64,000 nt of DNA, from the NCBI RefSeq assembly GCF_964204865.1, contig NC_135257.1, positions 9,322,151 through 9,386,150 of the forward strand, given 5' to 3'. Of the stretch, positions 1 through 46,636 are shown piece by piece (the first letter of the stretch is position 1; every line of letters starts with the position of its first letter). This DNA comes from Styela clava. Its lineage: Eukaryota > Chordata > Ascidiacea > Stolidobranchia > Styelidae. A program made the position numbers and the translations under genes. The notes beneath the pieces were generated by a model that saw only the letters and a program-made list of their open reading frames with translations, had not been told where the DNA came from and made no database searches.

Positions 1-1083
1 ATTCCACATAACGATAAATGGATGAAAGCTGGGGAGGTTGATCGTGATTGCTGGTTAAAAGCAGGCGAGGCTGGTATATTAGGCGTTTCTATACCAGCAG
101 ACAAAGGTGGAATTGGAGGCGATTGGTTGTCCAGTGTCATCGTCGAAGAGGAGCAATTCTACTCAAACTGCCCTGACCCTGGATACACCGTGCATTCTGA
201 CGTAATGATGCCATATATAGCTAAACATGGTACGAAGGAACAAATTGAAAAATATATCTCTGACTTGACCGCCGGGAGAAAAATAGGAGCCATTGCTATG
301 ACCGAACCCGGCGCTGGGAGTGACCTCCAAGGTATTCGGACATATGCGAAACGAGAAGGAGATGAATGGATTATAAATGGAAGCAAAACATACATAAGTA
401 ATGGATGGCTCTGCGACGTTGTTGTACTCGTAGCCTCCACAAAAACAGAGGGAAAATCTGCGGCTCATGGCATAACTCTTTTTGTAATAGATAGTAGTAC
501 CCCTGGCTTCACAAAAGGTCAAAAGTTGAAAAAAATAGGACTCGAAGGACAGGATACATCCGAATTATTTTTTGAGGATTGTAGAGTACCTTACAGCGCT
601 GTCCTTGGAGGGGAAGCTGGGATAAATAAAGGTTTTTACATTATGATGCAAGAATTGCCACAAGAACGATTACTAGTCGCAAATATGTCGATGTCTACAA
701 GTGAGTTTATGTTTGAAGCGACGCGTGATTACGTTAAGCAGAGAAAGGCATTCGGCAGGCGCATTGCCGACTTGCAAACAATACAACACAAATTGGCTGG
801 TCTAAAGACAGAAATCGCCGTTACACGTGCGTTTATAGATCGATGCAACGAGCTTCACAACGAAAGGAAATTGGATAATTCCACGGCATCAATGGCAAAG
901 TACTGGGCATCCGATAGGGCAAACGCACAAGCATATGATTTTGTTCAAATGTTCGGGGGAAACGGTTACATGTGCGAATATCCTATTTCAAAGGCCTATG
1001 TTGACGTCCGTGCCCACTCAATATATGGTGGTACAAATGAAATCATGAAAGAACTTATTGCGAGGCAAATTTTAAAAAAATGA
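1..1083 (+). CDS. ACADL: Long-chain acyl-CoA dehydrogenase, 5'-partial
   Basis: Mitochondrial FAD flavoprotein catalysing the first, alpha-beta dehydrogenation step of long-chain acyl-CoA beta-oxidation. The frame is open from base 1 and already matches the family upstream of the first ATG (IPHNDKW before MKAGEV), so the ATG at 22 is internal and the true start and transit peptide lie outside the window. Visible hallmarks are the FAD/substrate motif MTEPGAGSDLQG, ISNG, the helix QRKAFGR, FGGNGYM and the C-terminal YGGTNEIMKELIAR. The catalytic base of the LCAD/IVD subgroup is the Glu in LPQER (codon 664-666). It is present, and the position that carries the Glu in MCAD is Gly, as in genuine LCADs. 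Stop at 1081-1083. No intron interrupts these 360 codons, although the vertebrate gene has many exons; this could mean intron loss or a retrogene. Family assignment is secure. Confidence 0.96.
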   Translation: MPHNDKWMKAGEVDRDCWLKAGEAGILGVSIPADKGGIGGDWLSSVIVEEEQFYSNCPDPGYTVHSDVMMPYIAKHGTKEQIEKYISDLTAGRKIGAIAMTEPGAGSDLQGIRTYAKREGDEWIINGSKTYISNGWLCDVVVLVASTKTEGKSAAHGITLFVIDSSTPGFTKGQKLKKIGLEGQDTSELFFEDCRVPYSAVLGGEAGINKGFYIMMQELPQERLLVANMSMSTSEFMFEATRDYVKQRKAFGRRIADLQTIQHKLAGLKTEIAVTRAFIDRCNELHNERKLDNSTASMAKYWASDRANAQAYDFVQMFGGNGYMCEYPISKAYVDVRAHSIYGGTNEIMKELIARQILKK

Positions 1084-8536: not shown

Positions 8537-11500
8537 ATGGGTTGTGCGGGAAGTAAAGGCACATCAACTGTACCACAAAATACTGCCCCAGCAGGAAAAA
8601 ATGGGACTGCCACTAAACCAAGCAAGAATGTAGAACCAGCGGCAGAACCAAAGCCAAAACCAGCGGAAGAAGGTAATGCGATGAGATGTCATCAAAATAC
8701 AGTTTGCTCCTATTGAATATTTTGTTCAGTCCGTTTAATATCTGCTGGATGTGATGACCTTGTGGCCGAGGCGATCTGCTCTCATCGCGCTAGTAACTTT
8801 CTGTTGTAAAAATAGTTTGGTGTAGTGTAAAAAATGTTCGTTGCTTGCTGATTGCTTAATCTGTACGACGCGTTGCTATATGATTAGTGTTGTTGTTTGG
8901 CATGGATGTTTGGGTCGGGTCAAAGTGTGAGCAAATACCTCCAAAAATGTTATGGTAATTTTTATCCGAGTTCAATATTAATATTCCTTGGGGGCTTTTT
9001 CCAGTTGTGTACCGATTGCTTTTTCTGTATTGAATATCTACCATCTTATTCTCGATATAAACCGAACAGTGCACAATCAGTCGGCATTATGGCTTAAAAG
9101 ACGTTCCGTTTCAGCATAACATTTTGAATTTGAACCCATTGGCTTACTACATTTATGACTTTAATACAAAGAAAAAGTGAAAACAAGTTCACTAACACAC
9201 ATTTTATTTTCATTTAGCCGCAGCTTCCAAGCCTGAAGATCAAGCAAAACCGGAATCGTCAACGGGGGAGGCTGAAGCCCCGAAAGAAAGTGAGTGCTGT
9301 TTTACTTGGTGACCGTACATTTGAACCCATGTACATTTGAACCCATGCGTATATCCACGGGTTCAATCTATATGCGGGTGCTAAAACCCATGGGTTAGGG
9401 TTAGTATGGGTTTAACTATCCGTGAAACAAAAAAAATTCCATAGGTGCAATGGCATACAGGTGCAATTGTCATGGGTTCAAATGTACGTGGGTTCAAATG
9501 TAATGGAACCGTTTTACTTCTATATACGCGTACAATGCCAGCATTTTCTTAAAAATCTTAGAATTATAATAGTGATGGTAATCAAATAAATTAAAATATG
9601 AGATTTATATTTTATTTAATAAATAGATAAGGATTACTATTATGTCAAAACGTAACACCGGCGTTAAAACTGAAATTTTGATTCCTGCCTTGCTAGATTC
9701 ATTTTGAGTATGAATAAAAAAGCGACAAACATTCGTAACAGTAGAAACGTTCAATGCATTTGTACAAAATATGAGTATAATTGAGTGTAGTTTGTTTTTA
9801 TTTCACCGCTATGTGCATTTGAATGAGACTTTCAATACATAGGTAATATGTTGTGTATGAATATATTTAAAAATAGAGTGTCGATGTCTTTTGTATAATA
9901 TTTCGTTTATCGATGCGTGGAAATAATGACATTGAACGTTACGGTATAATGAAATGTCATTAATTATTAAAAATGAAAAGAACTTAATGCGTAAAATTAT
10001 ACGCTCAAAAAGTGTTCCGTCATATTGACTAATTTTCTAATACTAGGAATGATAAGAACATTTTTATATTATTGTACTTGTAAGCTTCAGAAAATTCAGG
10101 AATATTATTGTGAGAGACAAATAAAATTGAATTTGAAATGAGCTTCAACACTTGGTATAGGTTTGTGCACATATTCCAACAAAATATAAAATAATGTTTA
10201 ATGAGATGCATAATCAATATTCTACCGTGCATTATTGTACCAGGATAATGATTCTCTCGAACACACCATGAATAATTGAAACAAAATTTTGAAAACATTT
10301 CAACTCTTTATATTATTGCTATTATCAAATAAATGTCCCCATATGATGTTATCATAAGTTAAATTTAGATATATTATAATTTTACATAAAACCAATTAAT
10401 AGTGAGATGTAATTATACGTTAATTAGACATACATATTCTCTGAATATCTCAGAAATAAATTGCGAGCCTGCTCATAATGTCACTGGTAATTAGCACTAT
10501 TGAAGTCTCAGCATAGTAACAAGCATATGATGTGACAAAGTTTGCATCGAATTACACCGAGCTTCCTAACGCCTCGGCTAACGTGTTATTTTGTTCAATG
10601 ATGACAATTAGGTCTACTTGACCATGCTCTCTTCTAAATATTACTCTGATTGTATAATTCTCAATTGGAGACTTCATGCGCGGAATCACCCGCCTTCAAA
10701 ATACTCTGATTTGAAGCGGCCATTTCAAATTTTCATCCTTGTTATTCCGATATGTACAAATGAATATATAACATAATATTGGCAAATATGTCTCGTCGCC
10801 TTGCGCAGCCTTAGATGGTTATCAAATTGGAAATCTCAAGGGACAATGCAGCTCATCTCCCAAGTGCATATACTCGTGACTTTAATTAAGACAATATCAC
10901 TATAACAATGCAGAAATATTTCAGCGTACGTGTCATAATTCGGAAATAGAAGACCACATCAAATACCACTCACTTGGGCGTAACCAAGTTTTAAATTTTC
11001 GGTTTTGGCTGGCTTATTACGATTTTATTATCTGAGAAGAATAAAAACTCGAATTATTTGCTAACTCGTGTTCGCAGACATTTATTATGGCAACGGTCAA
11101 TATTTATTGAAGATTATTCGGCTTCGTGAATCAAAAAGGCCACACACGTTGATCTAATGACACAACTTTGGCGGCGCGAGTCAGTATTCATACAATATTT
11201 TGCTTTATTAAGAGAGATTTTAAGTCGGATATGAAATTTACCGGCTTAATAGATACCAAATACACGTATCCGTATCAATCATGCCCGATGACTGTTGGAT
11301 TTCTGTATACATGAAGTCTTTTCTCCCACAAGCGATACGAATAAGTTCTTGTTGATTGTTGGGAATGCTTGTCTACTAAATATTTTCGAGTACCGCAAGA
11401 CTTCCTTAACAAACCCTATTGAAATATTGACAAAGGGATATCCAGACAATTCCAGAGTTGGGCAATATGTGGAATCGGGATTAAATTAGCATTTTCGAAG

Positions 11501-14500
11501 TCTAATAACTACTATTTTGTGTTTTATTTTACAATAAGATGTCGATTTTTTTGTGAAAATAAGTTGAAGCCCTATTTATAAAAGCTTTTCTGTGATATTG
11601 GACAATAAATATTCATAATAACATGCTAACTTTTTGATACTTTTGCAAAAATATGCACAAAAATGGCAAAATATTGACGCCGGTGATTATAGTGAAACCT
11701 CGTCGAGACAGATATTAAATTGGGCCTTTTTCAGAAAATCAAAAAGGTAAAAGCCTAATGTTTCATTTTGGCGCAAAATTGATGCCAGGAAAACATGACT
11801 CTATAAAAATGTCAACAAGGCATTACATGTAGGGCGGCGTTTAGGTTTGTGGAAACTGACCAAAGGCTTTTATTTCGCGTGTACCAAACTACAGTATTCG
11901 TTAAACAGATACATTCCTCTCAAGGTGGAATGTCAGCTTCCACATACTCGCTAAAATGCGATAGCCAGCATTGATAGCAACCATCTACTCAGGAAATATG
12001 TCGCCAATAGTCGATATAACATTAACGTATCTAATTTATTTATCCTTGTACACTTTTAGACATTGCAAAAAAAAATATATATGGACACCTTTTTTGGATT
12101 TCGTTGTTTAACCACAATGTCTCATCACTCTCATACAATACGATCATTTCATTAGCTAAGATTTTTAATTCAAATTGTACTTTGAAAATGTAATTATATT
12201 GAGTATATTCAAACAACGTTCTTATTTACTTTATAATTCAAATAATATTGTGTTACTTTCAATAGGTGAACAGACTGCTACACAAGCACAAGGTGAGCCA
12301 ATATTTACGATAATAATCTTACAGTGATAACTCAATATCTGATCACAATGGGTTTGGTTTTTTGACTGAATTCACTGCAAACATCAATGTAAAGTTACTA
12401 TATATAATATTTAAAATTCAAATAAACGTTCTGCTTAAAGTTTTATGTTTATGTCTTCGTAACTGATCGATGACTTTCTGTATTTCTGTTAGAACCAGAG
12501 AAACCATCGGGTGAGTGTATTTTATTTTACGCAGTAGTGAATATAATTATGCAAAATACTTCAAATGATTTGAGAAAGTTGAACTTTTTTTTTACATTGA
12601 ATTGGTTTAAAATGATTATAGCTGCTTCACTAATACCACAAATAAGTAGTTGTAGTTGTTTGAGTAGAAAAATCAGAACTCCTTAATTTAAGCAACCAAA
12701 CTAATACGAATCTTTCGAGAAATATTTTTTTTTATTTAATATGCATGATGGCATATTATAAACGCAAAAGGAATCTTCAATTCATTTTGATATTTTCTAT
12801 TTGACGAAAAATTTCTGTACTAGAAATGCATGCTCAATATAATTTTGCCTGGTACTATAGTAGTAATTGAACACAGAGTCGAGTCAAATCGAACGAAAAT
12901 CCGAGCAACCGAAAAAAATGCAAACGCCACAGAAGGATGAAGAGTCTGTCGAGTCAGATCGCAGTAAAGGTGAAGACAATGTTCCAAAAACACTACTTGA
13001 GGATGCTCAAGAAATACTCACTAAATCCACCCCGGAAGCAGATACATTTATGCGCAATGATGAACCACAATCCGGAACAGATATAGAAATTAAAACTCAA
13101 GATTCACAAAGTACAGTCCATGATGCGGATGCTCTAGTTGATTCAGACGATTCTAAAAACAAGCAAAGGGCAGGTTATAACATTTTTTTTTATTATAGGC
13201 TAGAATATCGTTGTAGGATACAATTTACGCATTTCGGTAAATGTATATTAGAAAACAATCATATGCGGTTCAGAAATAGACAAAATCGAAAAATGGTGTC
13301 ATGTGAAAAAGCAAGCAAACTGTCGGAATAAATCAACGAATGTCTTATAAACCACAGGACAATCCCGAGTGTTGTCTTTATGTTTATGCGTTCGACTACA
13401 TATTAGGACAAAACAATATTTTAAATCTCGTAGACCCACGTGCTTTGTGCCCTTGGAGGGAAGAATAGTAACTTATCTTCTTTGAAAATATCGGAAACAT
13501 TTCTTTTCATTTGATATTTTCTGACACTTCTTCGCTATTCTTTGTAAAACTTAATTCTATTTTCTCTTTACAATTTTCTCTTTCTGGTCAACTGCAGACG
13601 CCCAGAAACGAGTGGATGTCCAAGCAGTGACGAATAATGTGGAAACAAAAGTTGAACAGGATATCAATGTGGCAGCAGGTTATTAACTTTATCTTTTAAT
13701 AAAGCAAAATGCAACATATTTGAGTTACAATGAAACCAGAAAATCATTTTTCATTATGAAACAACAGAAAAACATTAAAATATACCTTAGAGTTATATAT
13801 ATATATATATTATGAAAATTCTAGTTGAGGAAATGTTAGAGGAAACAATAATTTCAAATGAGGAATCTTACACTCAGTGGCTCTCAGAGATCCAGGATGA
13901 AGCAGGTCGATGAATGTCCAATCCCAGATTGTGTTATTTTATTTTGGGGATATTTCAGTTACTTATTATTTCTTCGTCTTCGTTGTTCTAACACATTGCA
14001 TAAATGGGTCAACATATCTTGATTTGTTTTATTCTGTATTTCTTCCTATTATTTGATATTACCATGTGATATCACAATTTCTTCGAGAATTTTTTCTACG
14101 GCCTCGTGAACTTCATAAGTGACGAAATTGCATCAGATCTAAACCTAGGAATCACAATTACGCAATCTTTCTATTCTTTTTTCTACTAATTCTTGCTCTG
14201 TGTTCCATTGCTTACACCAACGAACTTGTGCATATGTTGTGAGTTGACCGATCTTTTAATTTATTCCTCATTTTCTCTCACTTTGTAAATTCTTCAATGT
14301 TGGGTTTAGTTGGAGATGTGGAAGTACATTCTGATAAAGATGAGCAATCTGCCAATACGAACAGCTTGACAGAAACCCTAAATATTGAAAATACAATTCC
14401 GGATAACCAACCTGTTGAAAATGAACAGATAATAAGCGAGGAAAAACAACAGACTATATCAGCAGACCATACTTCTGAGGTTAAAACTTTGGATGATGAC

Positions 14501-17500
14501 AAAGGTTACTAGAAAAATATTACCCTTGCCAACTTTCTTAGTTCTTCTGTTTCTTTCTTTTTTGTATTTACCTGATTCTGAGTATTTTTTACATTTTGAC
14601 CGATTATCATTTGTTTTTTCCTTTAGTTCCAGTTTTAAGAAGCGTCTTTTTTGCTTGTTTTGACAATTTGTTCGTTTCTATGAGCACCTGCTTCCCCAAG
14701 GACCTGCTTCTGTTGACTATTTACAACATATATTGTGAAAAGAGCTGCCTATATTGGGCAACAAACTATATGTCGTAATTACTCACATGTTTATTGACAG
14801 AACCCATCACAACACTGCAATCCGACAATAATAACGAAGCACATGATAATCAAGCTTCATGTTTGGACAAGCATGTTGACGAATCCGCAATAGAGATTAA
14901 CAATTCGCTGGAAGAAGATAATGGTGTTTCAAAACCTCTTGTTAATCAACAATTTGAAATTGGGGAAACAATTACAACAATTTCTGAGAATATAAATGAC
15001 CAAGGTTCTTCTATTTCCTGCTAACATATTCAAATCTGAAGTTAGTGTTTGATTCCACACAATTATTGTTACAGTAGAGAAAATAAAAGAAGAAAATACT
15101 GACCTATTACAAGAACATGAATCGGAAAAAAATGCAAAGGCAAAATCTACTTCTGACGATTTAACAAATGCGGATCAGCAAAAAGACATAGGTCTATTAT
15201 TTACTTCTCACTATCTATAAACCATTTCCGTTTTTTTTCTATTATTGTCTTCTCTTTTTCGTTTGTTTCATCGGTCATAAAATCTATTTTCTGCAAACGT
15301 TTTGTTTCACACACTTACTTTTATATTCTACTTTTTACATCACATATTTTCCTTTATTGTGTAAGAATTGAAACAGCAATGATTAATGTTTAGCAGCTGA
15401 AATTCCTGAAAAGAAGTCAGAAATCGACGATTTTCAATCAACGCAAAGTGATTATGGCAAATCTGTAACTTTGCAAGATGACATTGACGACTCTTCTACT
15501 TTGAGAAAACATGAAGCTGCTATCTGTACGGCAGATACTGATGAAAGCGGGATATCAGAAACACCAAAGGAAATAGATTCTCTTGTAGATGGATCTGTTG
15601 CAGAACAAGGTTTTATTTCTTGTTTTATACAAATCCAGAAAGAAGTTTTATCGATGAAAACTTGCAAAATATCAGTTTAGTAGTAATATTTGGTGGAAAT
15701 TAAGGAAATTAAAAAAATAAATCGAACCAGGGACAGTACAAGGTTATTTCATACATAAGAAGGCTTCGCAAATTGTCTATTTTACTATATTTATTCGTCT
15801 AACGCTTCAGACCACAACATGGAATTTCAATCTGAAAATAACAAGCAATCAGATAATGATCAAGCTATAGTATCCGGTAATATATTCAAGATTAACGATC
15901 ACACAGAGAAAGTAAACGACAGTTCACTTGAAGTAGATATTCGTGATGAACAAATTCTTTCCACCGAACAAGTTAAGGATGAGGAAACTATCAAATCGGT
16001 ATCGGAAAATATAGATGACCCAGGTTATTCTATTGATTTGTGTTAAAAATAATAAAAGTTGGTATCTTTTTCTTTCACAATATTGTTCTTACAGTGGGGA
16101 AATTAGAGGACAAAAATACAAACGTGATAAAAGAAGACGAATCAGAACAAAATGAACAAACACAATCTGTATCTATTGAGTCTTTCGACACGAGTCAGCG
16201 AACGCCAGATCTAGGTCTTTGTCTGTACTCTATTTCCTTTTTTCATTCAGTATTTTCTTGCACTATAAACTTTTCATTTTGTCGACTAGCAAATTTAAAT
16301 TTTCACCTTGAAATCTATTGTTTCCATTTCCACTTTAATATTGGCGGCCGTATTCGGAGGAACTGAAACAATAACGATTTTGTTTAGCAGTGGACACTTC
16401 GGAAACGAAATCGGATAACCTGCTTCCTCAATTGGCGGAAGGTGCTTATGGCGAATCTAAAACTTTCATCGATTCAAACACAGTTGACGCCTTATTATCT
16501 CAAGATACTGATAATAATCAGCCTTCAGAAAAATCTGAAAACCAGTCCTCTCAGCAGGTCGTTGAAACAAATTTATTGAAAGATGGATCTGTAGATGACA
16601 AAGGTTTTCTTTTCTTTTCATATATCTCATTATTAAAATACTATTTTTCTCCTACTGCTTATATATATCTACTATACCGCTTATTCTCCTATTGCTCTTC
16701 TCTATTTCTTAATCAGAAGCGGCAATATTACTGCTGAAAAGATTACTTTTTGATATTGTATTCATAAGACAACAGGAAAGTCGTGCTCGCGAGTTCATTT
16801 TATTTTACTTCGCATTTTAACTTATATGAATAATACTTCGAAATAGTGGACAAAACATCGAAAATTCATGATGTAGCAATAAAGGCAAACGAAGAAGATT
16901 TAAATTCCGAGCAAGTAACTAAAAACAAAGACTTAGATTCAGAAGGAAATAGTGTTGTTGCACAAAAGACAGAAAATGATGATATCATCAAATCGTTATC
17001 CGAAGATATAAATGTCGCAGGTTCTTTTAATTCTTCCCGACTTATCCAAAAGTAACACTGGTATTTCATATCCTATACTACTTGTTACAGAGGAAAAATT
17101 AAAAGATATAAATACTGACAAATTGCAAGAGCACGAATCGCAACAAACTGAACAAGCAGAATCTATCTCTATCGAGAAAAATAATACAAAACAGGAAACA
17201 GGTTATATTTCTTCTTCTTTTTTTCTTCTTCATTTTGCATTTATTTGCAATCCGCTTTCTTCTGCATAATCGCCATAATATATATATATATATTATAAAA
17301 AACATGTCTTGGATAAATTAAAACAGCACAAGTTAATGTTTAGAGGCGGAAACTTTGGATAAAGCTGATGCGAATTCCACAGATTTATCGGATCCAAAAT
17401 CTGAGACATTCGAGCAGATCAAGAACATCGTTAATTCTAACAAAATTAAAGTTGATATATCCGGGGAGGCTGATGTTATTCAAACTTCGGAAGAACCACA

Positions 17501-20500
17501 GACCCATTTATCACTACATGATAGTCAGAGTATTTTATCGACAAATGGATTTTTATCTGAAAAAGGTTTTACTTCTTTTTTTTCTTCAGTTCTGAACTTC
17601 TATTTTCCCATGGTCATCTAGCCCTGATACTACTCATAACTTTACAGTCTTCTCAAAAAATGGGACTTACTTACACAGTGATATCTTTTCATCACAGTTA
17701 AATGATATTGTTTGTGTATATATAGTCGGGGAAGTGGACGAAAAATTGAAAGACAGTCAAGCAGGAGTAACGACCGACGAGAATACTTTATTAAGTTCAA
17801 ATGACGGGCAAGTTTCTCCCATTACTCATCTTGTAAATGAAAACCCCGAAACAGAGGAACAAAGTAGTCAGCTGTCACAAATAGATGGTACCGAAACGGT
17901 CAACGCTGAACCAGGTTCATTTTCATCTGAACAACCACAATCTAACTCTATCGAGAAAAATGATACAAACCAGGAAACAGATTCAGGTCTATATTTCTTG
18001 TTCTGTTATTTTTTCCTTTCTACGTCTTCTGCCTTATTTTGAGCTTAGTTCCAATCCGCTTTCTTTACTGCATAATTATACCATAATATATATAATTCAA
18101 ACACATATATTGGATAAATTTAAACAACACAAGTGAATGTTTAGCTGAGGAAACTTTGGAAAAACCTGATGCGAATTCCACAGATTTATCGGATCCAAAA
18201 TCGGAGACATTCGAGCAGATCAAAGACATCGTTGATTCTAACAAAATTAACGTTGATTCAACCAATGAGGCTGATGTTATTCAAACTTTGGAAGAAGCAC
18301 AGACCCAGTTGTCACAACCTGACAATCAGAATATTTTATCGACAAATGGATTTATATCTGAAAAAGGTTTTACTTTTTTCTCTTCATCTTTTTGATCTTC
18401 TGCTTTTTAATTGTTTTAAATCCTTGATACTATTCTTAACTTCACAATCTTTTCAAAAAATGAGTAACTGAGTTTAGTTATGAAAAACATCTTTCAAAAG
18501 CATATGAGTTCAAATCTATTTGTTTTATATGTTTTCTGCTGTGACATGGAGACAACTTTCCATTAGATTTGAACGATATTGTTTATGTGCACATAGTCGA
18601 GGAAGTGGACGAAAATTTGAAAGATAGTGAGAAAGCAGCAGTAACGATTGACCAGAGTAATATAGTATCTTCAAAGGATGAGGAGGTTATTTCAAGTACC
18701 CATTCTGTAGACGAAATCCAAATAACAGAGGGACAAAACAGGCAGTTGATACAACTAGATAGTGCCGAAACAATTAAAACAGACAACGTTGAACCAGGTT
18801 CTTTTTCCTCTTAACTTTATCTTCATTTTTAAAACGAAATTTTAATTTGACAGATATTTTATTTCCTACCGCAATGTAATTTAGTCAGATTGGATAAAAC
18901 TTCTTTATACTTTTATCAGTATGATTCTATTGAACCCTTTTTACTTCTTCTCTTCTGTTCATTGTACATCGCAATTAATCTTTTATTTATAAATTACACT
19001 GAACATCATATACACACTAGCTTTCTGAGTTTCTGCTTTATTTCTCAGAAAGTTCTCCAATCGAACAAATACATAATATTGAACCAGCTTTGGTACCTGA
19101 AGATATTGAACCAATATTGAAAAACGAAGAAGGTAACGTTGATCAATCAACAGACAAACAAATCAATTTACCCTTATCACATCCTGATACTGTTGTTCAG
19201 TCGACAATTTTCGAAGACGATGGTCATAAAGGTTTTTCTCAACTTTCAATATTCGTTCTTTTTATGTTGTTCAACTTTGCCTGATATTGCTACAGTTCTA
19301 TCCATTCTCTTCATTTCTTTTCGAAATTGAACCATCATCTTGCTCAATTGTACACATAGTGTAGACATATATTCTAACATTTTTATCAGATAACATCGAT
19401 TCTCAAAATACAGTGGATTCTGAGATCCATACTGCGGAAGATGTGGTGAATAACGAAAATATTCAACTCGCCACAACTAACAACGGTGAATATTTTGTAT
19501 TTAATTTGACAATTTTCGATTTTTTATCTTCGATATTTTTTACACGAAAGATTACAGTGATTTGATCTTTCACACTTATTTAGAAGTAGTAGACTCCGAA
19601 CAAAAAGACGTGCCCTTGAACAAAGAAACTTCTATAATGCAATCTCCTGAACTAACTTCGCCGAAAAAGTCGGAATCACTAGGTGATAAATGTCACTATT
19701 TCTTTGCTGATAAAAAATTTGTCAAATTTATTACAAAAATAAAATCTATTTAAAACAGATGAAACAACACAAAAAACTGAGGCTGATACTGAGTCCCAAG
19801 ATATCGAACAAAATGTAATAACCGAACAAGGTATTAAGGGTATTTGGAACATTATTATTGATTCATTCATATAATACAAATATGTATCATTTATTGTGCT
19901 ATTTAACCAATAAAGGTACAATTGGAAAAGATTCCAATGATGGTGAACATGAAACAAACATCAGTGGGCCTACTACCCAGGAGTCAGTTCATTCTACGCA
20001 TACGGGTAACTTGCATAAAGTGTACTCAAAGCAATGAAATGACTGTTTCGATAATCGTACTGTTTCACTGCAGATTTACAAGACGATTCACAGCAACAAG
20101 TAGAGGAACAAAACGCGACGCAGAGTCACTCGGGAAAAGAAGGTTTATGAAATGATCTCTAATGATCATTTCCCATTATATGCCCCGTTTCTGTCAAACT
20201 AATATCTCATGTGCTTCTTTTGTCTGTCGTACTTACGTTTCTGACCTTGTTCATTTCACCATCACTGTACATCGATTGTTTGTTGTACATTCTTCTCGTA
20301 CTGGAAACTACGGAATGCCGTTACTTGATCATCAGACAAGTGGCAACATCAAAATTATGTTGTGATATATTCTTATGTCTTATCGTTCTTTGTTCTATCG
20401 TGTTACGTGTTCCATGCATGATACTGTCTATACTATTTTTCATCCATGATTCATTTAAAATACAAAATTACACCTAACTCGCCTCAACCTATTGTTGAAA

Positions 20501-23500
20501 GTTTTCGATTGCGATTTTAAGATTTGATAGATCAAAGTCATTTTTTGCCAGTTCTGTCCGAGAATTTCAAATATTAAACATCCTGACGCCCACCATACTT
20601 TTTAAAAAACAAAAATGTAACTCTGTAACTCTGCGCTCTCGTAATTTGTAGATTCTAGACATTCAACAATATAATTTTTTATCTTTGATAACCGATTTGA
20701 AAGTGGATCCAGCGCTGCGGATCCATATTAAAATTACTTCGCTGTCCATATAAAAACACGTTATTCAGAAAATTCACTAATTTTTGAACAAACCGACGTA
20801 CATGGCAGATTGATGTAAAAGAATAGCCTACATTCATTTACACATATTTAAGTTAATTTGTGTTTGATCCATGTTGTGAATATTTATTTCTTCTATCTTG
20901 CTCATGTTTATGGATACATTGCTTCGGCGAAAAATATTCCTTTTCCAAACAAACTACGGTTACACTCGGATGATCATTTCTAATCTCGACTGAGTTTGAG
21001 TTCTCGCGCAAACTGAATGTATGCTTTATAATTTCGAAATCTTCATAACAAACCTGACATTTAGAACAAAATTGTCCGAGACGTGATGGCGAGGAGCTTT
21101 TATCTAGTGTGAGGAGTGAGTCAATTCCTGTTACCAATGCTCAAGTTTGTGATATTAATAATTTGGAAGATACTTTACCGACAAGATCTACTGGAGCAGT
21201 GGGGAACCAAGAGTCGGATAACGAGGACAACGATTCTTATCCGGATGATGAGATCCAACAAAGAGCCAATACCGAATCGGACGAAGGTGATAAGCAATCA
21301 TGTCAGTGATATTTTAGACAGACAGTGTAACAGGTTTATATGTCTTGATACTGGGGAGGAGAATTGGTTGCGGGGTTGCTCAAGGTCGGATCAAGATTTT
21401 TGCTTGTCTCACTTCTCTACACCAACTCTTAAATCGAATACAACTGCATCATGTAAACCAACATATCTTGCTGTTCCCCGTGAAACTTGCCACAATGGCT
21501 AACTTTATAATCATTTATAGGTATTAGTTAATATTGCCCAATGGTTTTGAGATCAAACACGCATTTTCTTTGAAAACTGAAAATATAAAGTAGCTCTTTT
21601 TTTCCAAACTAAAGATACTCCTAACAATATTGATTCTCACCAAAAACAAGAAGAACCAAACAAAAAGCAACAAGTGGATGGAGGTGCATGGAAATTTTAT
21701 TCACTTTTGGCATTAAAGCTGAAACAATCTTTTTCCATCCGGGTGTACAATGCGGAAGATAATAGTACGAATGAACAAAAATTTGAAAGTAATAAGAAAT
21801 CTATTATTGCAGAAGCAAACGATGAATCCCAAGCGCAAGGTTTATAATTGAGATTATCACAGTCTTGCTTATAGATTTCCTGTTGAACAAAAATGACAAT
21901 GAACCTAAAAGTACAGGGTGATAAAACATATAACCCAGTTCATTTAAAACATATTCTAGAGAAAACATAACTTTTGTGCAAAGCGTCCTAAATTACTGAA
22001 ACCATTGGGTACAAGCATAAACAAACAGAAGTTGAATTGTCAAATAAATTTTCTTTTTTTGGTAGTTGAGGAACACAATGATAAAACGCTAGCGTCAGAG
22101 ACAGATCAGTCTCTCCAGCGACGAGTCAACGACAAATTTATTTCGCCACGGCAGAAAACATTATCTAGTTCATCAGAAGGTGCCCACAATTTTGATCTTG
22201 CACGCTCATTTACACTTTTTTTTATCAATACTTAATTTCATTCATTTTGTATGAATTTTTCTTTGTTGTCGATGATGGCACTTAACTCTGTTCATTTGTA
22301 TTTTAGATCTAAAAAATGTTGTTTATTTATGTTTCATAATCATGTCAGAGAAATTCATATGATTCAGTTTATTGCAGCTGATTTTATTTTATTTACAGAT
22401 GATTTACCATTGGTTAGTTGCTCGTGTGATTTTGTATTGCTGCTTTTTATCTTTGAACTTCAGTTGTTGCAGTTTGTGCAAATAATAATATCAACATGAA
22501 TATATAATTCTGTTTGTAGATGACTAATTGCTTGTGCATGTGCAACATATAAATTAATTGCATGCTGACTGTAGAAGTTATGCTATTATACTACAAAATA
22601 TCATGACTAATGGTAACCTTGCATGCTTATAATGTACTATATATATTAGAACCAACATCTGCGCCCGAGCCCGCAGTCGAAGAAAAGCCTGAGGAAGCAA
22701 GTACAGAACAAGCTTCGGAACAAGCACCAGGTTATTTCCAATACTTAAATTGGAAGATTAGGAATTATTAGTCGCAAGAATAAAAATTGGCTTTGCAAAT
22801 ACAATAATATATATATTAGAGTTATCTTTTCTGCCAAGAACAAACCATACATTTCAGCATGATGCTCACTAATCAACTTAACTGCTTACATGCGTAAAAT
22901 TTAGTATTGTTTAATATATTTTTATTCTCCTATTTGTCGAAGGTTAAACGACAGTTCATGATTTATAACTACGGAATATGTTACTTTTTAACAGCTGAAG
23001 CGGAACCTGCAGCAGCAGAAGAGCCTTCAGCACCACCAGGTATCTAATACGTTCGCATTGGCAAACTTGATCATGTATTTTTTAATTCGCTGAGCAACAA
23101 GGTTACATTGTCGATTACATTATATTCTAGATTCTAGAATCATGTACGCGAAGTGCCTTATACTTCTGGCGTATGATTGTAAAATTAACAAACAAATAAA
23201 AATGTTTCGATCATGAGTAATAAGAAATAACATGAACAAAACGATTTAAACGTTGAACAATTGAGCGCCACGCAACACCCAGTATTGTATTTGAAATATA
23301 GTAATATCTATATTCAGTTCATAGCGCTGCTATGTTAATATAGTTCCTGAACGACAAAACAGGTTTTACGAGCAAGATTCTTCTCAAAACTCCCATTTTC
23401 ACGGAAATTTGTTGGATACTTTATTGTAATACGAAAGATGGATCTCAACATTCGCGAGCATGTTTTATCTTAAAAATAATCCATTTCGCATTAAAATAGC

Positions 23501-23883
23501 CATATTAAACAAATAAATTCAAAATAAAGCTTTTGTGAATTATTTTTTAAAATGTGCGTATAGAGCAACAGTATGATTTCAAAATTGTTTTGTTTAGGAA
23601 GATATTTGGATACTTTTTAATGTTAAATATTTGTGTTAAATCCATTAAGCATGAATTGTCACATTAAATACCAAAAAGTTGTTTATAGACGACAATGAAT
23701 AAATATAATATATATATAAAACACCAAAGTTGTATTTGAAGGCAAAAGAATTTAACATAAAAGTATAATTGCTTCATTTTCAATAGGAGACCCGACCATA
23801 CTTTAGTTTGCCAAAGTTTATCATTTCTTTCATTCGCAGCTGATGAACCTGCAGCTGATGCTGGCGCCGGTGGAGGAGAATAG
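8537..23883 (+). CDS. Acylated, acidic, disordered BASP1/GAP43-like protein of 33 frame-neutral exons
   Basis: Not recognised as a named gene. Exons: 8537-8672, 9218-9289, 12266-12292, 12493-12510, 12877-13173, 13598-13678, 13825-13905, 14310-14504, 14801-15004, 15075-15191, 15394-15609, 15811-16023, 16095-16214, 16388-16603, 16847-17020, 17091-17201, 17344-17565, 17726-17986, 18145-18366, 18597-18797, 19049-19231, 19390-19485, 19584-19682, 19759-19830, 19916-20005, 20074-20142, 21065-21286, 21615-21683, 21759-21839, 22066-22179, 22650-22730, 22995-23039, 23840-23883. They sum to 4449 nt (1482 aa) with no in-frame stop. The N-terminus MGCAGSK fits N-myristoylation at Gly2 plus palmitoylation at Cys3, so membrane anchoring is inferred. 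The rest is Glu/Ser/Asn/Gln/Pro-rich with no folded domain. Every internal exon is 1-1 phase and a multiple of three, so any exon can be skipped. The outer exons (1-4, 31-33) are Ala/Pro/Glu/Lys-rich like BASP1; the inner ones are Asn/Ser/Asp-rich. The exon set is well supported by phase; which exons are used together is unknown. Confidence 0.82.
9308..9510. mobile_element. MITE with about 40-bp inverted repeats and a 9-bp target duplication
   Basis: Both ends read GGT..CC..TACATTTGAACCCA inward, and each end carries the motif TACATTTGAACCCA twice. The element is flanked by a perfect GTTTTACTT duplication (9299-9307 and 9511-9519). A 9-bp duplication is typical of Mutator-like elements. There is no coding capacity. 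It lies 18 bases beyond the end of exon 2 of the acidic-protein gene, leaving the donor intact. Confidence 0.85.
9520..12265 (+). other. Rest of intron 2 of the acidic-protein gene, no gene seen
   Basis: AT-rich intronic sequence between the MITE and exon 3. I found no additional 1-1 phase acidic exon with good splice sites, no RNA gene and no other recognisable repeat. Confidence 0.5.
12493..12510 (+). other. 18-nt microexon (exon 4)
   Basis: TTTCTGTTAG precedes and GTGAGT follows an 18-base exon coding for EPEKPS when joined in phase 1. The neighbouring exon 3 (12266-12292) is only 27 nt. Both keep frame and match the Glu/Pro/Lys composition of the flanking exons. Confidence 0.7.
14801..15609 (+). 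repeat. Exon cassette unit 1 (exons 9-11, A-B-C)
   Basis: A exon 204 nt (ends ISENINDQ), 70-nt intron ending in GTTACAG, B exon 117 nt (starts VEKIKEENTD, contains QEHESE), 202-nt intron ending in TTTAG, C exon 216 nt (ends DGSVAEQ). Units 2 and 3 repeat this order with matching exon sizes and near-constant A-B introns. Confidence 0.8.
15811..16603 (+). repeat. Exon cassette unit 2 (exons 12-14, A-B-C)
   Basis: A exon 213 nt (ends SVSENIDDP), 71-nt intron, B exon 120 nt (starts VGKLEDKNTN, contains KEDESEQNEQ), C exon 216 nt (ends DGSVDDK). It starts 1010 bases after unit 1. Confidence 0.8.
16847..17565 (+). repeat. Exon cassette unit 3 (exons 15-17, A-B-C)
   Basis: A exon 174 nt (ends KSLSEDINVA), 70-nt intron, B exon 111 nt (starts EEKLKDINTD, contains QEHESQQTEQ), C exon 222 nt (ends STNGFLSEK). 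It starts 1036 bases after unit 2. Confidence 0.8.
17726..18366 (+). repeat. Exon cassette unit 4 with a fused A+B exon (exons 18-19)
   Basis: Exon 18 (261 nt) begins as an A exon (VGEVDEKLKD, ending NAEP), reads on through what is an intron start in unit 5 (GSFSS), and ends as a B exon (SIEKNDTNQETDS, compare SIEKNNTKQET in exon 16). The following intron is of B-C type. Exon 19 (222 nt) is nearly identical to exon 17 in length and sequence. Confidence 0.75.
18597..19231 (+). repeat. Exon cassette unit 5, B exon missing (exons 20-21)
   Basis: Exon 20 (201 nt, VEEVDENLKD ending DNVEP) is the partner of exon 18's A part. The 251 bases after it contain no intact B exon; a stretch near 18918-18937 (reading QYDSIEP) resembles the end of a B exon. 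Exon 21 (183 nt, ends FEDDGHK) is the C-type exon. Confidence 0.6.
20143..21064 (+). other. Intron 26, no gene seen
   Basis: A 922-bp intron between exons 26 and 27, pyrimidine-rich in its first half. No extra exon or element is recognised. Confidence 0.5.
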
Positions 23884-36400: not shown

Positions 36401-38936
36401 CGCCTATTATTGAGTAAAAAATTGAATATATACATGTCGTCTTATATTTCTTGTTAGTGCAATCAAGGAAGAACTGAACAAAGACAAAAATGTATCGTCA
36501 ACACCTACAGAAGAAAATGATGTCGCCGAGCCTTGCATGGGTGGGTGATTGAAATCTTTCTACTTGTTGCCCGAGTAAAAATTTTGTTCGTCCAATTTCA
36601 GGGGCTAACAGCGCCATAGTAATGGTTTTAACTGACTTGTGTTCGGTGTATGGAATATTTATGAAAAGCACTTATCAAATCATGTTACATTTCTCGAAAT
36701 TTCTCGCTGTGTCAGTAATCAAATTCACCACTGTTTTGTGTTCTTTTCGGTCTATCATACAAGTTGACTTAGTTGGGAACCCTGGCACTTATGTATCGCA
36801 GAATCAGCAGTAAAGTCAACGATTCATAACAAAAACCGCATTCAAAAACTTATAGTCATTTGCCCGTTAAACTTATTTTTTGCCAAAGGTCCCGACTGCT
36901 ATTCTTCCTGCAACACTCGCGAACCAGATGAGACGGATTGCCAGTGTTTTTACAAATGCATATCTGGGACTCGCTCTCCAGCTTGCTGTTCGGTGAGTAC
37001 TTACTTTTAACATGTTAGACCAGCGGTTCCCAAACCGCGGCCCGCGGGCCAAATCCGTCCCGCGTAACGGTTTAAAATGACCCGCCGAGCTTGAGTGAAA
37101 TAATGTTTAACAGATTTTGTTTCTTTTGATTCAATTATACCAGTATCTCAATTATACGTACCGGTATTAGGATTACATAGGGTGGTAATTAATAACAGCC
37201 ATATAAGAAAGCTCAGAGATGTCAGAAAACAAACGAAAACTAGACTCTGAAAACAGACGTTTCTTGAATAAATGGCAGTGTTTGTATTTCTGAATCAAAA
37301 AAATCAAACTTCAGCGATTTTTGAACTATTCCAGTTCTGAAGGAATACGCCATTAAGCGCCAATTATGAGTCGAACAAACATGTTTCAGAAAATGTCAAA
37401 TGAAGGTGAATCCATTTCGGGCGCTACATTCTTCCGGCCCTCGAACGTCTCTCCAATTCTGATTTTGGCCCGCGGACATAAAAGTTTGGGAACCCCTGTG
37501 CTAGACCTTTTGACGAGAGTTGTATCTGCGCTATCTCACTATTTATTTTAGTCGTCTAATTTGTAGCAATAATCCTGAGTGGCAAGTAAGGCGATTCCCG
37601 ATAATCTTCCCGATTCTTCGTCCGCTACGCTAGGAAGCGTAAGAGAGTTCTGTATACCACTCAGCAAATAATGTGTGTGCAAAACATACGGACGAAAATG
37701 GAGTTCATATCATTGCTAACAAATAATCCATATCAAGTGTTTACGTATTTTGGGTTTGAGTAAACTAGTGAGTGGTGAGCCGTCGGATTGAAGTTGATAT
37801 ATAGATTTAATCACCTAAATATTAATACATGATTGAGTTCCTCTTACCAAATTTCGTATTTTCAACTGAAATTTATTGGTATTAAATAATGTCAATCGCT
37901 AATATTATAATTTTAATATTTTCAACAGTCTGGCCTGTTGTTCAATCGACAAGAAGGAATGTGTGATTATCCATCAAATACCAATTGCGCTCAACCCGAC
38001 GAAATACCCGAGACTGAGACCGCAACTTCATCTACAGGTAAAAACTGTAAAATCGAATTTAATACAAAAAATTCATGTTTTATTTCATCTAAGATAAAGA
38101 AGAAATACATATCAGATTGAAGATAAACTATTGTATGGTACATTTTGCATGAGTTTTGTTCATAGTTCAATTTGTGAATTTTTACACTTGTAGTACTAAA
38201 ATATTTCTTATTATTGACATGTTATTGGATTTTACAAATATATTCAAGTCACCACAAGCGCATATTTCTAAAAATGAAATAAAAAACTTGAAAGAATATA
38301 ATCAAAGGGAAAGGACGACCAGAGAAATCTTTATGTTTCAATGTAAACCCGGTAGTAAAAAGTACCAGATGTGCATCCAAAATGTAAATATAATAAATAA
38401 AATATCTATTCCAGATCATCGTATACCAACTCCTGTACTTGAATGATATTAATGGCTGTGAAATTCATATGTTATGTAAAGAACAAACCTAAAAGTTAAA
38501 TTTTTTAAAATTTCAATTTTCCCAATTTTTTTTAATCATGAGATCGAATTATTTTTCTTACAAATTTGGTTGTTTTGGAGAAGTATTTAAAAAAATCAAC
38601 AAAGACATATCAAGTTTTGTTGAAATATTTTGAACAGCAAAGACTGATTTGACGAACACGCAATCCACTACCAGTAAATCGACCACAACAGAGCCAATAC
38701 CTGATTCTACTACATCTACTACTGTTACAAGCACTACTACGACCACCACTATCTCTACTACCCCCGCGACAACAATCAATGGTTCTTTCGATTGCAACAA
38801 TCGTGTCGGAACATTTGGCGATCCAATTATTAAACGAAAATTTCATATATGCCTACAAGATGGACGTCATTTCGAGAACATGTGTGCCTACTCTCTAGTA
38901 TTTCTTGACGGGGGATGCACCTGGCCCCCTGCATAG
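30426..38936 (+). CDS. Secreted GH18 chitinase with chitin-binding region
   Basis: Endo-chitinase of the AMCase/chitotriosidase type, hydrolysing beta-1,4-GlcNAc polymers outside the cell. Exons: 30426-30477, 31573-31715, 32061-32222, 32459-32587, 34079-34203, 34400-34526, 34718-34794, 35097-35205, 35632-35751, 36160-36272, 36458-36540, 36889-36992, 37929-38037, 38638-38936. They sum to 1752 nt (583 aa) and all junction phases agree. Exon 1 is a short hydrophobic leader. GH18 spans about residues 22-395: [19 protein letters not shown], the catalytic [10 protein letters not shown] in exon 4 (proton donor Glu, codon 32525-32527), [10 protein letters not shown] and [10 protein letters not shown], so it should be active. 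Exons 12-13 encode a Cys-rich chitin-binding-like block. Exon 14 has a Thr-rich linker and a four-Cys CBM14-type domain ending CTWPPA. The donor of exon 9 (GTTATT) is weak. An alternative last exon lies at 39075. Confidence 0.93.
30907..31338. mobile_element. hAT-like MITE, GGGAT-rich family, copy 1
   Basis: Ends are CAGGCTTG...CAAGCCTG. The flanks ATAAAAGC (30899-30906) and ATATAAGC (31339-31346) are an 8-bp duplication with one mismatch. Subterminal regions are packed with CCATGGGA/GGGATGGGA motifs on both sides. It lies in chitinase intron 1 and shares its interior with the copy at 32786. Confidence 0.85.
32786..33236. mobile_element. hAT-like MITE, GGGAT-rich family, copy 2
   Basis: Same ends (CAGGCTTGTCCATGGG and CCATGGACAAGCCTG) and a collinear interior with the copy at 30907, in the same orientation, inside chitinase intron 4. 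No clear target duplication is visible at this copy. Confidence 0.85.
33610..33745 (+). mobile_element. Probable truncated hAT end
   Basis: CAGTGGTTTTCAACATTTTG followed by a GGAGCGGAA / GCCACGGAACCCC context resembles hAT termini. No right end or target duplication was found. It lies in chitinase intron 4. Confidence 0.35.
37021..37498. mobile_element. hAT deletion derivative with transposase N-terminal fragment
   Basis: Ends CAGCGGTTCCCAAAC...GTTTGGGAACCCCTG. The flanks TGTTAGAC (37013-37020) and TGCTAGAC (37499-37506) are an 8-bp duplication with one mismatch. The interior from 37219 reads [19 protein letters not shown] on the plus strand, the start of a GTF2IRD2/ZBED-type hAT transposase, and then decays. 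It lies in chitinase intron 12. Confidence 0.88.
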
Positions 38937-39074
38937 ACGTCAAAACATCAGAACATCATCATCACTGCCATTACTATTGAATTTTATACCCAATATGTCA
39001 TTTCATCACATCATAAAAATTTTAAGTATACTTTTTGATAACTTTAATGGTTTTGTACTTCATAATATTGACAG

Positions 39075-39358
39075 CATCTTCTACCATGAGTTCAACAGAG
39101 CAAATACCTGTAACGGAAATACCTTTATCATCAACTGTTTCAACAAATCCGTCTTCTGATTCTGATGTATTACCCTATTCAACTACTACAATTACTGCTG
39201 GTAAAGAGTTCTCGTGTAAAGGAAGAAATGGATATTTCGGAGACCCCGTCAACCCACACATCTATCACGAATGTTCTATTGGGCATCATAAAGCTACTTT
39301 AGAGTGTCCAAAAGGTGCGGTCTTTCGTGGAACCTTTTGCACATGGAACAGAAAATAG
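39075..39358 (+). CDS. Alternative terminal exon of the chitinase (second CBM14-type domain)
   Basis: Begins after GACAG in the same phase (1) as the first terminal exon, and also starts CA, so exon 13 can join to either. It codes for a Ser/Thr-rich linker and a chitin-binding domain with the same spacing (RNGYFGDP, YHECS, LECPKGAVF, FCTWNRK) and a stop at 39356-39358. Using it gives a 578-aa protein. Because exon 14 at 38638 ends in its own stop, the two are mutually exclusive. Exon duplication is the simplest origin. Confidence 0.8.
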
Positions 39359-39749
39359 CATTTCTATGATAAGCTCAGTTCATATAGGTGGCATCTATCC
39401 CAATACTACTTTTTGAATATCATTGCACGAACTTTGATTTGTACCAAATTTGAAAATATTCTACCAGTCAATTTTCTAACTCTTTTTCTTGTCACACGTG
39501 GACGCTGTTAGTTGTATTGTCACAACAAGACGATTAACGATATATTTTTGTTTTGGTAATAGAAAACACTGACTGACTGTGTCACTCGGTAAATAGCAAT
39601 TTTTGGATGTGAATTTTTTTTTATCTATCAATATTATCGTTGAATCTTTACCGCTCGACAACTGCCATAGTTGCGTTTGCTTGCGTTGACTTGAATTCCT
39701 ATGTTGTTGTATTATTGGTTCCGCTGTTTTGAAAATATGACATCACAAA

Positions 39750-40930: not shown

Positions 40931-41048
40931 TTTATTTCGAGTAAAAGAACTTGATATAAAATGTTTTCAGGATTTCGAGGCACATAGAAAATAAACGTTA
41001 CAGAAACTTTTGAACTAGAAGTTATGTTGAAATTAAGCGAGTTTAAAA

Positions 41049-42014
41049 CTAGCATCTGTCTGACCACCGGACCATCGAGACTCCTTTCAATGTGAGAGTC
41101 TCCTTCAATTTGCCATCTTCGATTTCTGATATTTGAGAAAAATTCTCTCCTTTCAAGACAATCTTTTCTCCATCCTTAGTGCAAGTTGCCTGTAAATTTA
41201 AAAATGAGTAAGATTGGAGTATTTATTTTACTAAGGTATTGTCAGAATATGGAATTATAGAATATTCCTGTGATAGTTTGTTTTCGGAATTAAATTAAGA
41301 ATCTTATATGTTGCCTTTTTTCCACATTCTTTTGATTCAATTATACCAGTATCTCAATTATACGTACCGGTATTAGGATTACATAGGGCGGTAATTAATA
41401 ACAGTCATATAAGAAAGCTCAGAGATGTCAGAAAACAAACGAAAACTAGACTCTGAAAACAGAGGTTTTTTGGATAAATGGCAGTGTTTGTATTTCTGAA
41501 TTAATTATAATATTTTCCAAAAGAAGCATGAGAAGAAAATTATCAAATTGCAATTAGAAAATCCGGTTTATGCTCATCGTGAGCTAAGGAAATATCGAAC
41601 TGAAAGTAAATTTACTGGCCATACTCAGCATTCGTCTAAGCATCTATTATACCTTTGCGTTTCTGCCATCAGGGAAATTGAAGTCGTTTGGTACTCCCAG
41701 TTGAAAAGTATTCGAAACTGTCTGATTCGGATAAATTCTTTTCACGGTGATGTTGTCACCATCTTGTGTGACTTCAGTTTCCAATGTTGTCTCACTGCCT
41801 CGTTTAATCTGCTCATCGGTTGCTCCTATTGTGTAAAAATGATTTCATTCAACCACCAATAATATCGAAATGACCCAAACAATGATATATTTTTTTTAAT
41901 TTGACTATTATATATGTACTACGATGATATGATAAAACTTATCTCACCACTAGCACCAGCAAACTTCTCATAGTTGTCTCTTTTAACCATCTTGAATTTT
42001 CCGCTGAGAGACAT
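41049..42014 (-). CDS. Fatty-acid-binding protein A (liver-type/FABP10-like)
   Basis: Cytosolic beta-barrel carrier of fatty acids or similar small lipids. Coding exons, in order: 42014-41948 (67 nt), 41825-41653 (173 nt), 41189-41049 (141 nt); 126 aa. The 67 + 173 nt pattern with phases 1 and 0 is the classic FABP gene structure, but the usual third intron is absent. Start MSLSGKFKMVKRDNYEKFAG, then DEQIKRG, VKRIYPNQTVSNTFQLGVP, and the end KGVSMVRWSD. It is the most diverged of the four copies. A good donor (42299/42298) and acceptor (42021) indicate a 5' UTR intron. Reverse-strand AATAAA at 40931-40936. Intron 2 carries a hAT fragment. The ligand cannot be told from sequence. Confidence 0.9.
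41327..41501 (+). mobile_element. 175-bp hAT transposase fragment
   Basis: Matches 37121-37295 over its full length with about five differences by eye, including the frame [13 protein letters not shown]. It has no terminal repeats and sits in intron 2 of FABP gene A, opposite to the gene's strand. Confidence 0.85.
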
Positions 42015-42299
42015 TTTGTTCTAAAAAACAAACGAGAACTCATCGTAATGGGAATTTAGACATGTTAGGTTCATCCATTAACACCCTGTGATGAACATTA
42101 GCAAAACTATTTTTTAATCTCGATACCCCCTCGTAATATTGAATGTTGTATTCTCGCATAGTGTTAAATAACGCCCGATTTTGAATTTTCTCAAATCTTA
42201 CTATTGCTGAAAAACCCATGAAGTTTTCTCTGGTCGTATCTGCTGTACTCATTTGTTCAACAAATTTTTTTATCTAAAAATGTTATAATTTGACTTACC

Positions 42300-44129: not shown

Positions 44130-44155
44130 TTTATTCATCTTTATCAATAATTCTT

Positions 44156-44920: not shown

Positions 44921-45092
44921 TTCAATGATATCCAACCTAAAAGTTCATAAAATTTTAATTTAGCACAGCTATAATAAGAATATGTTAGATCTTATTCAAT
45001 CTATTCCTAAAATTAATTATAGAAATAACTTTTAATTCTAAATTTTTATCATAATATGATACAAATTAATATAAAAAAGATTGTACGAGTAC

Positions 45093-46304: not shown

Positions 46305-46636
46305 TTTATTTTTCATTAATGTCAAGCACGAAACACATTTTCAAGCAAAGTTTGCAAATTAACACTTTTATATTCAAAAGCAGAAAGTCACATAATCCAT
46401 AACTGTTCAATACTTCTATAGTACAAAACGGGGTAGTTATGACTTCTAGGCATAAAGCTCTACACAGACAAAGAATTTGTTCTCTAGACATAAACCAAAC
46501 AAGTAATATTTGTGATTAAAATAGCAAAAGTTATTCACAAATCATACTCTACCAAATATGATTAAAAAAATTACGATTCGTAACTAGGTTGATAATCGAA
46601 TTTGTGCTCAAAACGATTGGTAAAAGGACACTTGGA

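Follow-up and report, generated by a model that had tools for sequence, protein, structure and literature searches.

A probable 33-exon gene of uniform phase in Styela clava, predicted to encode an acidic, disordered protein with a lipid-type anchor and carrying a long run of weak splice donors

In elastin, single exons are skipped in frame; in troponin T, the variable 5' exons encode an acidic variable tail; and in titin (PEVK) and CD44, runs of in-frame cassette exons tune the length of a flexible region. BASP1, GAP43 and MARCKS combine N-terminal acylation with an acidic disordered chain, which in BASP1 and MARCKS is rich in Ala, Pro, Glu and Lys, and their vertebrate genes have few exons. 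Here, we describe a probable gene of 33 exons, predicted from the DNA, in the ascidian Styela clava. It occupies positions 8537-23883 on the forward strand of the window, by which we mean the whole analyzed stretch of 64,000 nucleotides (NCBI RefSeq assembly GCF_964204865.1, contig NC_135257.1, positions 9,322,151 to 9,386,150), and would encode a protein of 1482 amino acids (aa). We suggest that it is one gene with two layers, i.e. an acylatable core and an optional array of exons with weak donors that is under the control of a helper factor, and we hold this reading with moderate confidence.

Each of the 31 internal exons has a length divisible by three and begins and ends in phase 1, microexons of 18 and 27 nucleotides (nt) among them. 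Human tropoelastin (ELN), as summarized in PMC3458006, has 34 exons and phase 1 intron/exon borders, and the two genes share a similar exon number and internal exons that are all symmetric and of one phase. By contrast, ELN is secreted, hydrophobic and cross-linked, while the product described here is predicted to be intracellular, acidic and lipid-anchored; its composition is acidic and polar, and neither elastin-type hydrophobic and Lys/Ala cross-linking domains nor, by eye, a signal peptide were found in it. To our knowledge, ELN has no block of weak donors. In the account given in PMC2447309, the alternatively spliced 5' exons of troponin T (TNNT3) are mostly of one phase class; however, TNNT3 has a few such exons ahead of a structured protein, while here about 26 array exons encode no known domain. 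The titin PEVK and CD44 runs differ in belonging to large structured proteins and are unrelated in sequence. The predicted product resembles BASP1, GAP43 and MARCKS in its acidic, disordered chain, and BASP1 and MARCKS in the Ala/Pro/Glu/Lys-rich make-up of its core; by reading, MGCAGSK might also suit an N-terminal lipid anchor (MG- or Cys) such as these families have. It differs from BASP1, GAP43 and MARCKS in that it has no Pfam match to these families and, by eye, neither a MARCKS-type basic, Lys/Phe-rich effector domain nor a GAP43-type calmodulin-binding IQ motif (IQxxxRG) anywhere in the 1482 aa. The predicted parts of the gene are the following.

8537..8672, +, exon 1, core: 45 aa, with the start codon and an N terminus of acylation type (MGCAGSK); donor GTAATG
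9218..9289, +, exon 2, core, Ala/Pro/Glu-rich: 72 nt; donor GTGAGT; acceptor 9224 as an alternative
12266..12292, +, exon 3, core microexon: 27 nt; donor GTGAGC
12493..12510, +, exon 4, core microexon: 18 nt; donor GTGAGT
12877..13173, +, exon 5, first of the array: 297 nt; donor GTTATA, weak; alternatives in phase after 13236 and 13242 are better
13598..13678, +, exon 6: 81 nt
13825..13905, +, exon 7: 81 nt
14310..14504, +, exon 8: 195 nt
14801..15004, +, exon 9, B-type: 204 nt
15075..15191, +, exon 10, C-type: 117 nt
15394..15609, +, exon 11, A-type: 216 nt (213 via NAGNAG acceptor 15397); type given mainly by position, similarity to exon 14 weak (z 1.9)
15811..16023, +, exon 12, B-type: 213 nt
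16095..16214, +, exon 13, C-type: 120 nt
16388..16603, +, exon 14, A-type: 216 nt (213 via NAGNAG acceptor 16391)
16847..17020, +, exon 15, B-type: 174 nt; assignment weak (z 3.2 with exon 9)
17091..17201, +, exon 16, C-type: 111 nt
17344..17565, +, exon 17, A-type: 222 nt; 77% aa identity with exon 19
17726..17986, +, exon 18, B-type with an apparently fused C-type tail: 261 nt; 189 nt via an in-frame inner donor after 17914
18145..18366, +, exon 19, A-type: 222 nt
18597..18797, +, exon 20, B-type: 201 nt
19049..19231, +, exon 21: 183 nt; A-like only by order and donor; alternative donor after 19222
19390..19485, +, exon 22: 96 nt
19584..19682, +, exon 23: 99 nt
19759..19830, +, exon 24: 72 nt
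19916..20005, +, exon 25: 90 nt; alternative in-phase donor after 19942
20074..20142, +, exon 26: 69 nt
21065..21286, +, exon 27: 222 nt; the gene-finder prefers the alternative donor after 21301
21615..21683, +, exon 28: 69 nt; perhaps one exon with exon 29
21684..21758, +, piece between exons 28 and 29: 75 nt in an open frame; either a short intron or coding sequence that is kept
21759..21839, +, exon 29: 81 nt; poor acceptor
22066..22179, +, exon 30, last of the array: 114 nt
22650..22730, +, exon 31, core, Pro/Ala/Glu-rich: 81 nt
22995..23039, +, exon 32, core: 45 nt
23840..23883, +, exon 33, core: ADEPAADAGAGGGE tail, TAG stop

The same list of 33 exons, 1482 aa and phase 1-1 throughout had been proposed in a sequence-only reading of this DNA, and it has stood: a chain rebuilt from open stretches between AG and GT is identical to it, and a dynamic-programming gene-finder in which all phases were allowed and the start was fixed at the ATG recovered most of it. 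Run in nine settings (three codon training sets combined with three donor weights), the gene-finder returned 32/32 internal exons in phase 1-1 in eight settings and 33/33 in the remaining one, with 28-30 of the 33 exons exact (the last exon counted with its end at 23883) and the TAG stop codon at 23881-23883. Departures from the list concerned the NAGNAG acceptors 15394/15397 and 16388/16391, the alternative acceptor 9218/9224 in three runs, the donor 21286/21301 and, at full donor weight, the donor 19231/19222. Doubtful extra exons of 12 nt were placed at 11735-11746 in 9/9 runs and at 15731-15742 in one run; we regard the former as noise even though it was predicted in every run. Exons 28 and 29 share an open frame up to 21846, and because the 75 nt between them are open and in frame and the acceptor of exon 29 is poor, the true exon count may be 32; the gene-finder nonetheless kept the two exons apart.

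The idea that the method itself imposes phase 1 was rejected on the basis of a control: when a close variant of the gene-finder, using the codon table of another gene and leaving the end free, was applied to four myosin loci of this genome, the phases came out mixed. As a further control, introns were taken from spliced alignments of myosin heads. Introns were retained if they had eight well-aligned residues on either side, and repeats were removed by donor sequence; what was left out consists of poorly supported introns, introns close to the end of an alignment and repeats between overlapping loci. This gave 90 confident introns out of 254 in the alignment paths, with 60 in phase 0, 22 in phase 1 and 8 in phase 2. 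The chance of 32 consecutive phase 1 introns is then ~3e-20 if the introns are independent, and ~6e-13 if 20 of them are, 20 being a guess. None of the 528 possible exon-exon pairings creates a stop codon at the junction because the last base is G in 31 of the 32 exons and A in the other. Because all internal exons are in phase 1-1, any mixture of them stays in frame. The claim that the exons are skippable holds in this sense, i.e. any exon can be dropped without a frameshift or a junction stop, and does not hold as a demonstration of skipping.

The donors are abnormal from exon 5 on. Those of exons 2-4 are consensus-like (GTGAGT, GTGAGC and GTGAGT), and three of the four donors in exons 1-4 have a G at +5, as opposed to 0/28 in exons 5-32. 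All 17 donors of exons 5-21 have a pyrimidine at +3 (T in 13, C in 4), compared to 18 of the 90 myosin introns, the other 72 having a purine (Fisher p 2e-10); a +5 G is present in 0/17 of these donors and in 65/90 myosin introns (Fisher p 1e-8). The median donor score is -2.0 for exons 5-21 and 3.7 for the myosin introns, and no myosin donor (0/90) scores under the array median, with a matrix that was trained on the same 90 introns and favors them for this reason. An artifact of site choice was considered as a cause of the weak donors and rejected: in the range from 90 nt inside an exon to the end of its open frame, 16 of the 17 exons lack an alternative donor scoring above both their own and zero, and over all 32 donors only four better alternatives exist, all in phase 1, and only one of exons 5-21 has any. 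Downstream of these donors, at +7 to +30, the pyrimidine fraction is 0.71, compared to 0.53 in the myosin control (p 4e-5), and within the gene a lower donor score goes with more downstream pyrimidine (Spearman -0.39, p 0.03). Among diverged exon copies, the two recent pairs being left out, donor bases +3 to +8 agree at 0.67, as against 0.31-0.41 deeper in the introns. The weak donor form is thus common to copies that differ elsewhere.

In the accounts of PMC2964331 and PMC2766253, TIA proteins recruit U1 to weak donors bearing downstream U-rich tracts, binding is predictive 10-28 nt downstream of the donor, and donor strength and the presence of such tracts are anticorrelated in most metazoans. 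Exons 5-21 resemble exons activated by TIA1/TIAL1 in having a weak donor followed by a pyrimidine tract; they differ in that the cases described in these sources are single exons, while the donors here form an unbroken run of 17 of the same type. The weak donors make optional use of the exons more likely, and as far as the DNA goes a coordinated block would be as likely as a combinatorial family. In the latter, exons 5-30 would be picked independently and stochastically, giving thousands of isoforms per animal in the manner of cell-identity or recognition proteins. That all combinations are in frame and free of stops, that the donors of exons 5-21 are all weak and that alternative in-phase sites are present speak for such a family; however, a donor type common along the array fits joint control equally well, and the predicted product is intracellular, and we consider the stochastic family quite improbable.

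Core and array also differ in what they encode. The core (exons 1-4 and 31-33) amounts to 140 aa rich in Ala, Pro and Glu at a GC content of 0.48-0.60, and the array exons are rich in Asp, Asn, Ser, Thr and Gln at a GC content of 0.31-0.46. Net charge is negative in 31 of the 33 exons, and in a charge-hydropathy comparison 32 of 33 lie on the disordered side, exon 6 being the exception, in agreement with the acidic, disordered protein that had been proposed. The N terminus MGCAGSK matches, by reading, what we take to be a pattern for dual acylation by myristoylation and palmitoylation. Met-Gly-Cys is described as the palmitoylation signal of Src-family kinases in PMC9138253. The product would accordingly be acylated and anchored to the membrane, and it is predicted to be intracellular, no signal peptide being seen by eye in exon 1. 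By contrast, membership in the BASP1/GAP43 family, to which the product had earlier been likened, was not borne out: a Pfam-A scan, which presumably includes models for BASP1, GAP43 and MARCKS, gave only HNF-1_N at E 7.2 for the 140-aa core and nothing for the full 1482 aa, and a sequence search of the PDB with the core gave 0 matches up to E 10. What likeness there is to BASP1/GAP43 lies in composition and is confined to the core (exons 1-4 and 31-33), exons 5-30 differing in make-up; a BASP1-like mode of working is possible.

The sharp change of composition and donor class at exon 5 could also mean that there are two or more genes, with an independent gene for an acidic protein lying inside a large intron of a short core gene; the lengths of intron 2 (2976 nt) and intron 26 (922 nt) are also in line with this. 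We consider it highly improbable because the junctions on both sides are in phase 1 and because, with the phase left free, the best chain leads from the first ATG through the array to the last stop. As a separate observation, intron 2 contains a foldback-looking element at 9305-9505 of the window with a 16-nt direct repeat, whose CATTTGAACCCATG-like motif recurs, by eye, as reverse-complement copies ~150 nt further on.

Part of the array grew through tandem duplication of a three-exon A-B-C unit at ~14.8-18.8 kb. In pairwise comparisons of exons of at least 20 aa, among the best 45 pairs, the strongest kinships are between exons 17 and 19 (z 41) and exons 18 and 20 (z 16.5); exons 10, 13 and 16 are mutually related (z 7.7-10.7), exons 16 and 18 as well as 9 and 12 are linked at z 6.3, and weaker links join exons 14 and 17 (z 4.2), 14 and 19 (z 3.4) and 9 and 15 (z 3.2). 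Exon 18 has the look of a fusion, in that its first 189 nt align with exon 20 to a common donor and the remainder is similar to exon 16; its long and short forms are both in frame. In the youngest copies, DNA identity is 0.88 for exons 17/19 and 0.75 for exons 18/20, with dN/dS of 1.21 and 0.72, respectively. When the 17-18 copy is compared to the 19-20 copy, the length is divisible by three for 2/2 gaps in exons (3 and 9 nt) and for only 2/11 gaps in introns. Ten older exon pairs (dS 0.54-2.35) have open frames and dN/dS of 0.19-0.64, and exons 5-21 run through 1021 codons without a stop, as opposed to ~73 stops expected from composition. The stop-free codons and the gap lengths suggest that the open frame of exons 5-21 is under selection, and the array keeps its frame while its sequence is kept only loosely.

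These data bear on two further explanations. That exons 5-21 are a decaying array that is no longer spliced in would fit the poor donors and the dN/dS near 1 of the youngest copies; however, the stop-free codons and the dN/dS of the older pairs led us to reject the array as dead sequence, and together with a donor motif common among copies they leave this explanation barely credible. Alternatively, the gene could encode a constitutive long protein in which every exon is always used and the uniform phase is a fossil of duplication from a phase 1 founder, new exon copies surviving only if their phase matches. The clear tandem duplication within exons 9-20, in which duplicates inherit phase and donor, and the frame that stays open across exons 5-21 are in line with this explanation. 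By contrast, most of the compared exons outside exons 9-20 are not clearly related to the unit and are nevertheless in phase 1-1, the best outside pairs being 23-28 (z 4.3) and 26-28 (z 3.5); thus, A-B-C duplication alone is insufficient to explain the phase pattern, and older duplications could account for the uniform phase of these exons. The two microexons, and donors far weaker than those of the control genes and of exons 2-4 of the same gene, also argue against constitutive use. On balance, we regard constitutive use of all exons as unlikely, though as the most serious of the competitors.

Based on these data, we suggest the following model for the two-layered gene. Exons 1-4 and 31-33 would encode the Ala/Pro/Glu-rich core, with an N terminus suited to myristoylation and palmitoylation. 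Exons 5-30 would be optional, fast-evolving segments encoding acidic disordered stretches, derived in part from tandem A-B-C duplication. The array donors are probably too weak for default use, in which case the default splice would join exon 4 to exon 31, and inclusion of the array exons would probably depend on a helper of the TIA1/TIAL1 type that recruits U1 via the pyrimidine tracts of exons 5-21. Splicing would set the reach and charge of the product, a polyanionic brush anchored to the membrane. More tentatively, and with considerable doubt on our part, the systematically weak donors, which are pyrimidine-rich in exons 5-21, may put the block of ~26 exons under a single splicing switch; the cell type or the individual cell would then set the length and charge of the brush through the share of the block that it includes, from 59-140 aa to 1482 aa.

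Several points weigh against this model. Of the 90 myosin introns, 9 likewise have a pyrimidine at +3 and lack a G at +5, and the control is itself one gene family with related copies. The T fraction downstream is 0.35 after myosin donors with a +3 pyrimidine (n=18) and 0.41 after those with a +3 purine (n=72); because the former lack extra downstream T, no general compensation of weak donors by tracts is seen in this genome. Donors that belong to a single duplicated family do not count as independent; they make up about seven types (A, B, C and those of exons 5-8), and the p-values therefore overstate the difference. Within the gene, +3 is a purine in 7/9 of exons 22-30, and exons 31 and 32, counted here as core, also have weak donors (GTTATT and GTATCT), so that the border between core and array at the 3' end rests on composition. 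TIA binding is reported to be equally common beside constitutive and alternative exons in the account of PMC2964331, and PTB binds similar tracts, represses and opposes TIA in that of PMC2766253; for these reasons, the tracts alone are no proof of regulated inclusion, and by analogy with PTB-type repression they could silence the exons. Constitutive exons, too, can have weak donors or a uniform phase. The introns flanking the youngest copies (identities of 0.78 and 0.89) are about as alike as the exons, so that little beyond the frame appears to be held. Finally, the brush role is a reading of composition. The missing compensation in the myosin introns and the exon-like conservation of the youngest introns make the two-layered gene slightly less likely and constitutive use slightly more so.

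The gene appears to stand alone in its genome. In the 376.6-Mb assembly (379 contigs, with the window on the 23.8-Mb contig C9), queries with the core and with the array at E up to 10 gave matches only inside the gene (3/3 and 7/7, respectively), in a search that reads exon by exon and scores the best candidates and that short or diverged relatives could escape. The same genome contains one match over cut-off to GH6, a family that we take to be confined to tunicates among animals (L044, G000:C9:16179895-16180164; 35.4 bits, profile 136-253 of 305), in support of the earlier guess that the DNA comes from a tunicate. This GH6-like exon is on the same contig as the gene and has, by eye, hydrophobic, membrane-like open stretches upstream. 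Mitochondrial COX1, used as a marker of the taxon, gave no match in the assembly. Searches of an open-access library aimed at a tunicate gene of this kind gave none among the papers listed, so that the claim of an undescribed gene stands to this extent; as a kind, cassette genes of uniform phase are known. Exons of phase 1-1 have been tied to exon shuffling in the account of PMC7259759, and symmetric exons have been linked to disorder, one study attributing most of this link to collagen according to PMC4838654. The present gene differs in joining a long series of abnormal donors with an acidic product that is predicted to be disordered throughout and to bear a lipid-type anchor.

Other features of the window and the genome were seen in passing. 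Positions 1-1080 (+) of the window contain an intronless open frame of 360 aa that matches acyl-CoA dehydrogenase N-terminal, middle and C-terminal domains and is cut by the window edge. At 41000-50700 (-), there are at least four clustered genes for fatty-acid-binding-protein-like products, with four copies of one exon that have a GT donor at the same place and, by eye, in phase 0; both copies scanned gave lipocalin matches under the curated cut-off. Thr/Ser-rich segments are present at 37900-39360 (+), and one of the two scanned, 39026-39355, has a match to the chitin-binding domain CBM14 under the cut-off. The translated stretch SKQSQLCA occurs twice by eye (~2178-2201 and ~55799-55822 of the window), which suggests a dispersed repeat. 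As for the myosins, about seven muscle-type heads lie in ~95 kb at G000:C16 12609000-12708000 (L008, L011-L014, L016-L018, L022-L024, L026-L028, L031 and L035); two sets of matches there have equal or near-equal scores and a constant spacing of 22,278 bases, in what looks like a recent segmental duplication or an assembly duplicate. A further myosin head, L007 (G000:C6:13082844-13084853; profile 3-679 of 679), is an intronless single frame of 1032 aa and possibly a retrogene.

If the two-layered gene is as we suggest, it would represent a natural device for tuning the length of a disordered protein at the membrane, and it would offer a compact natural test of whether weak donors in a row act as a single switch or as several. 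In addition, it would be a case in which donor weakness itself, beyond the coding frame, has been kept through exon duplication, and it would bear on the diversification of cell-cortex proteins in tunicates.

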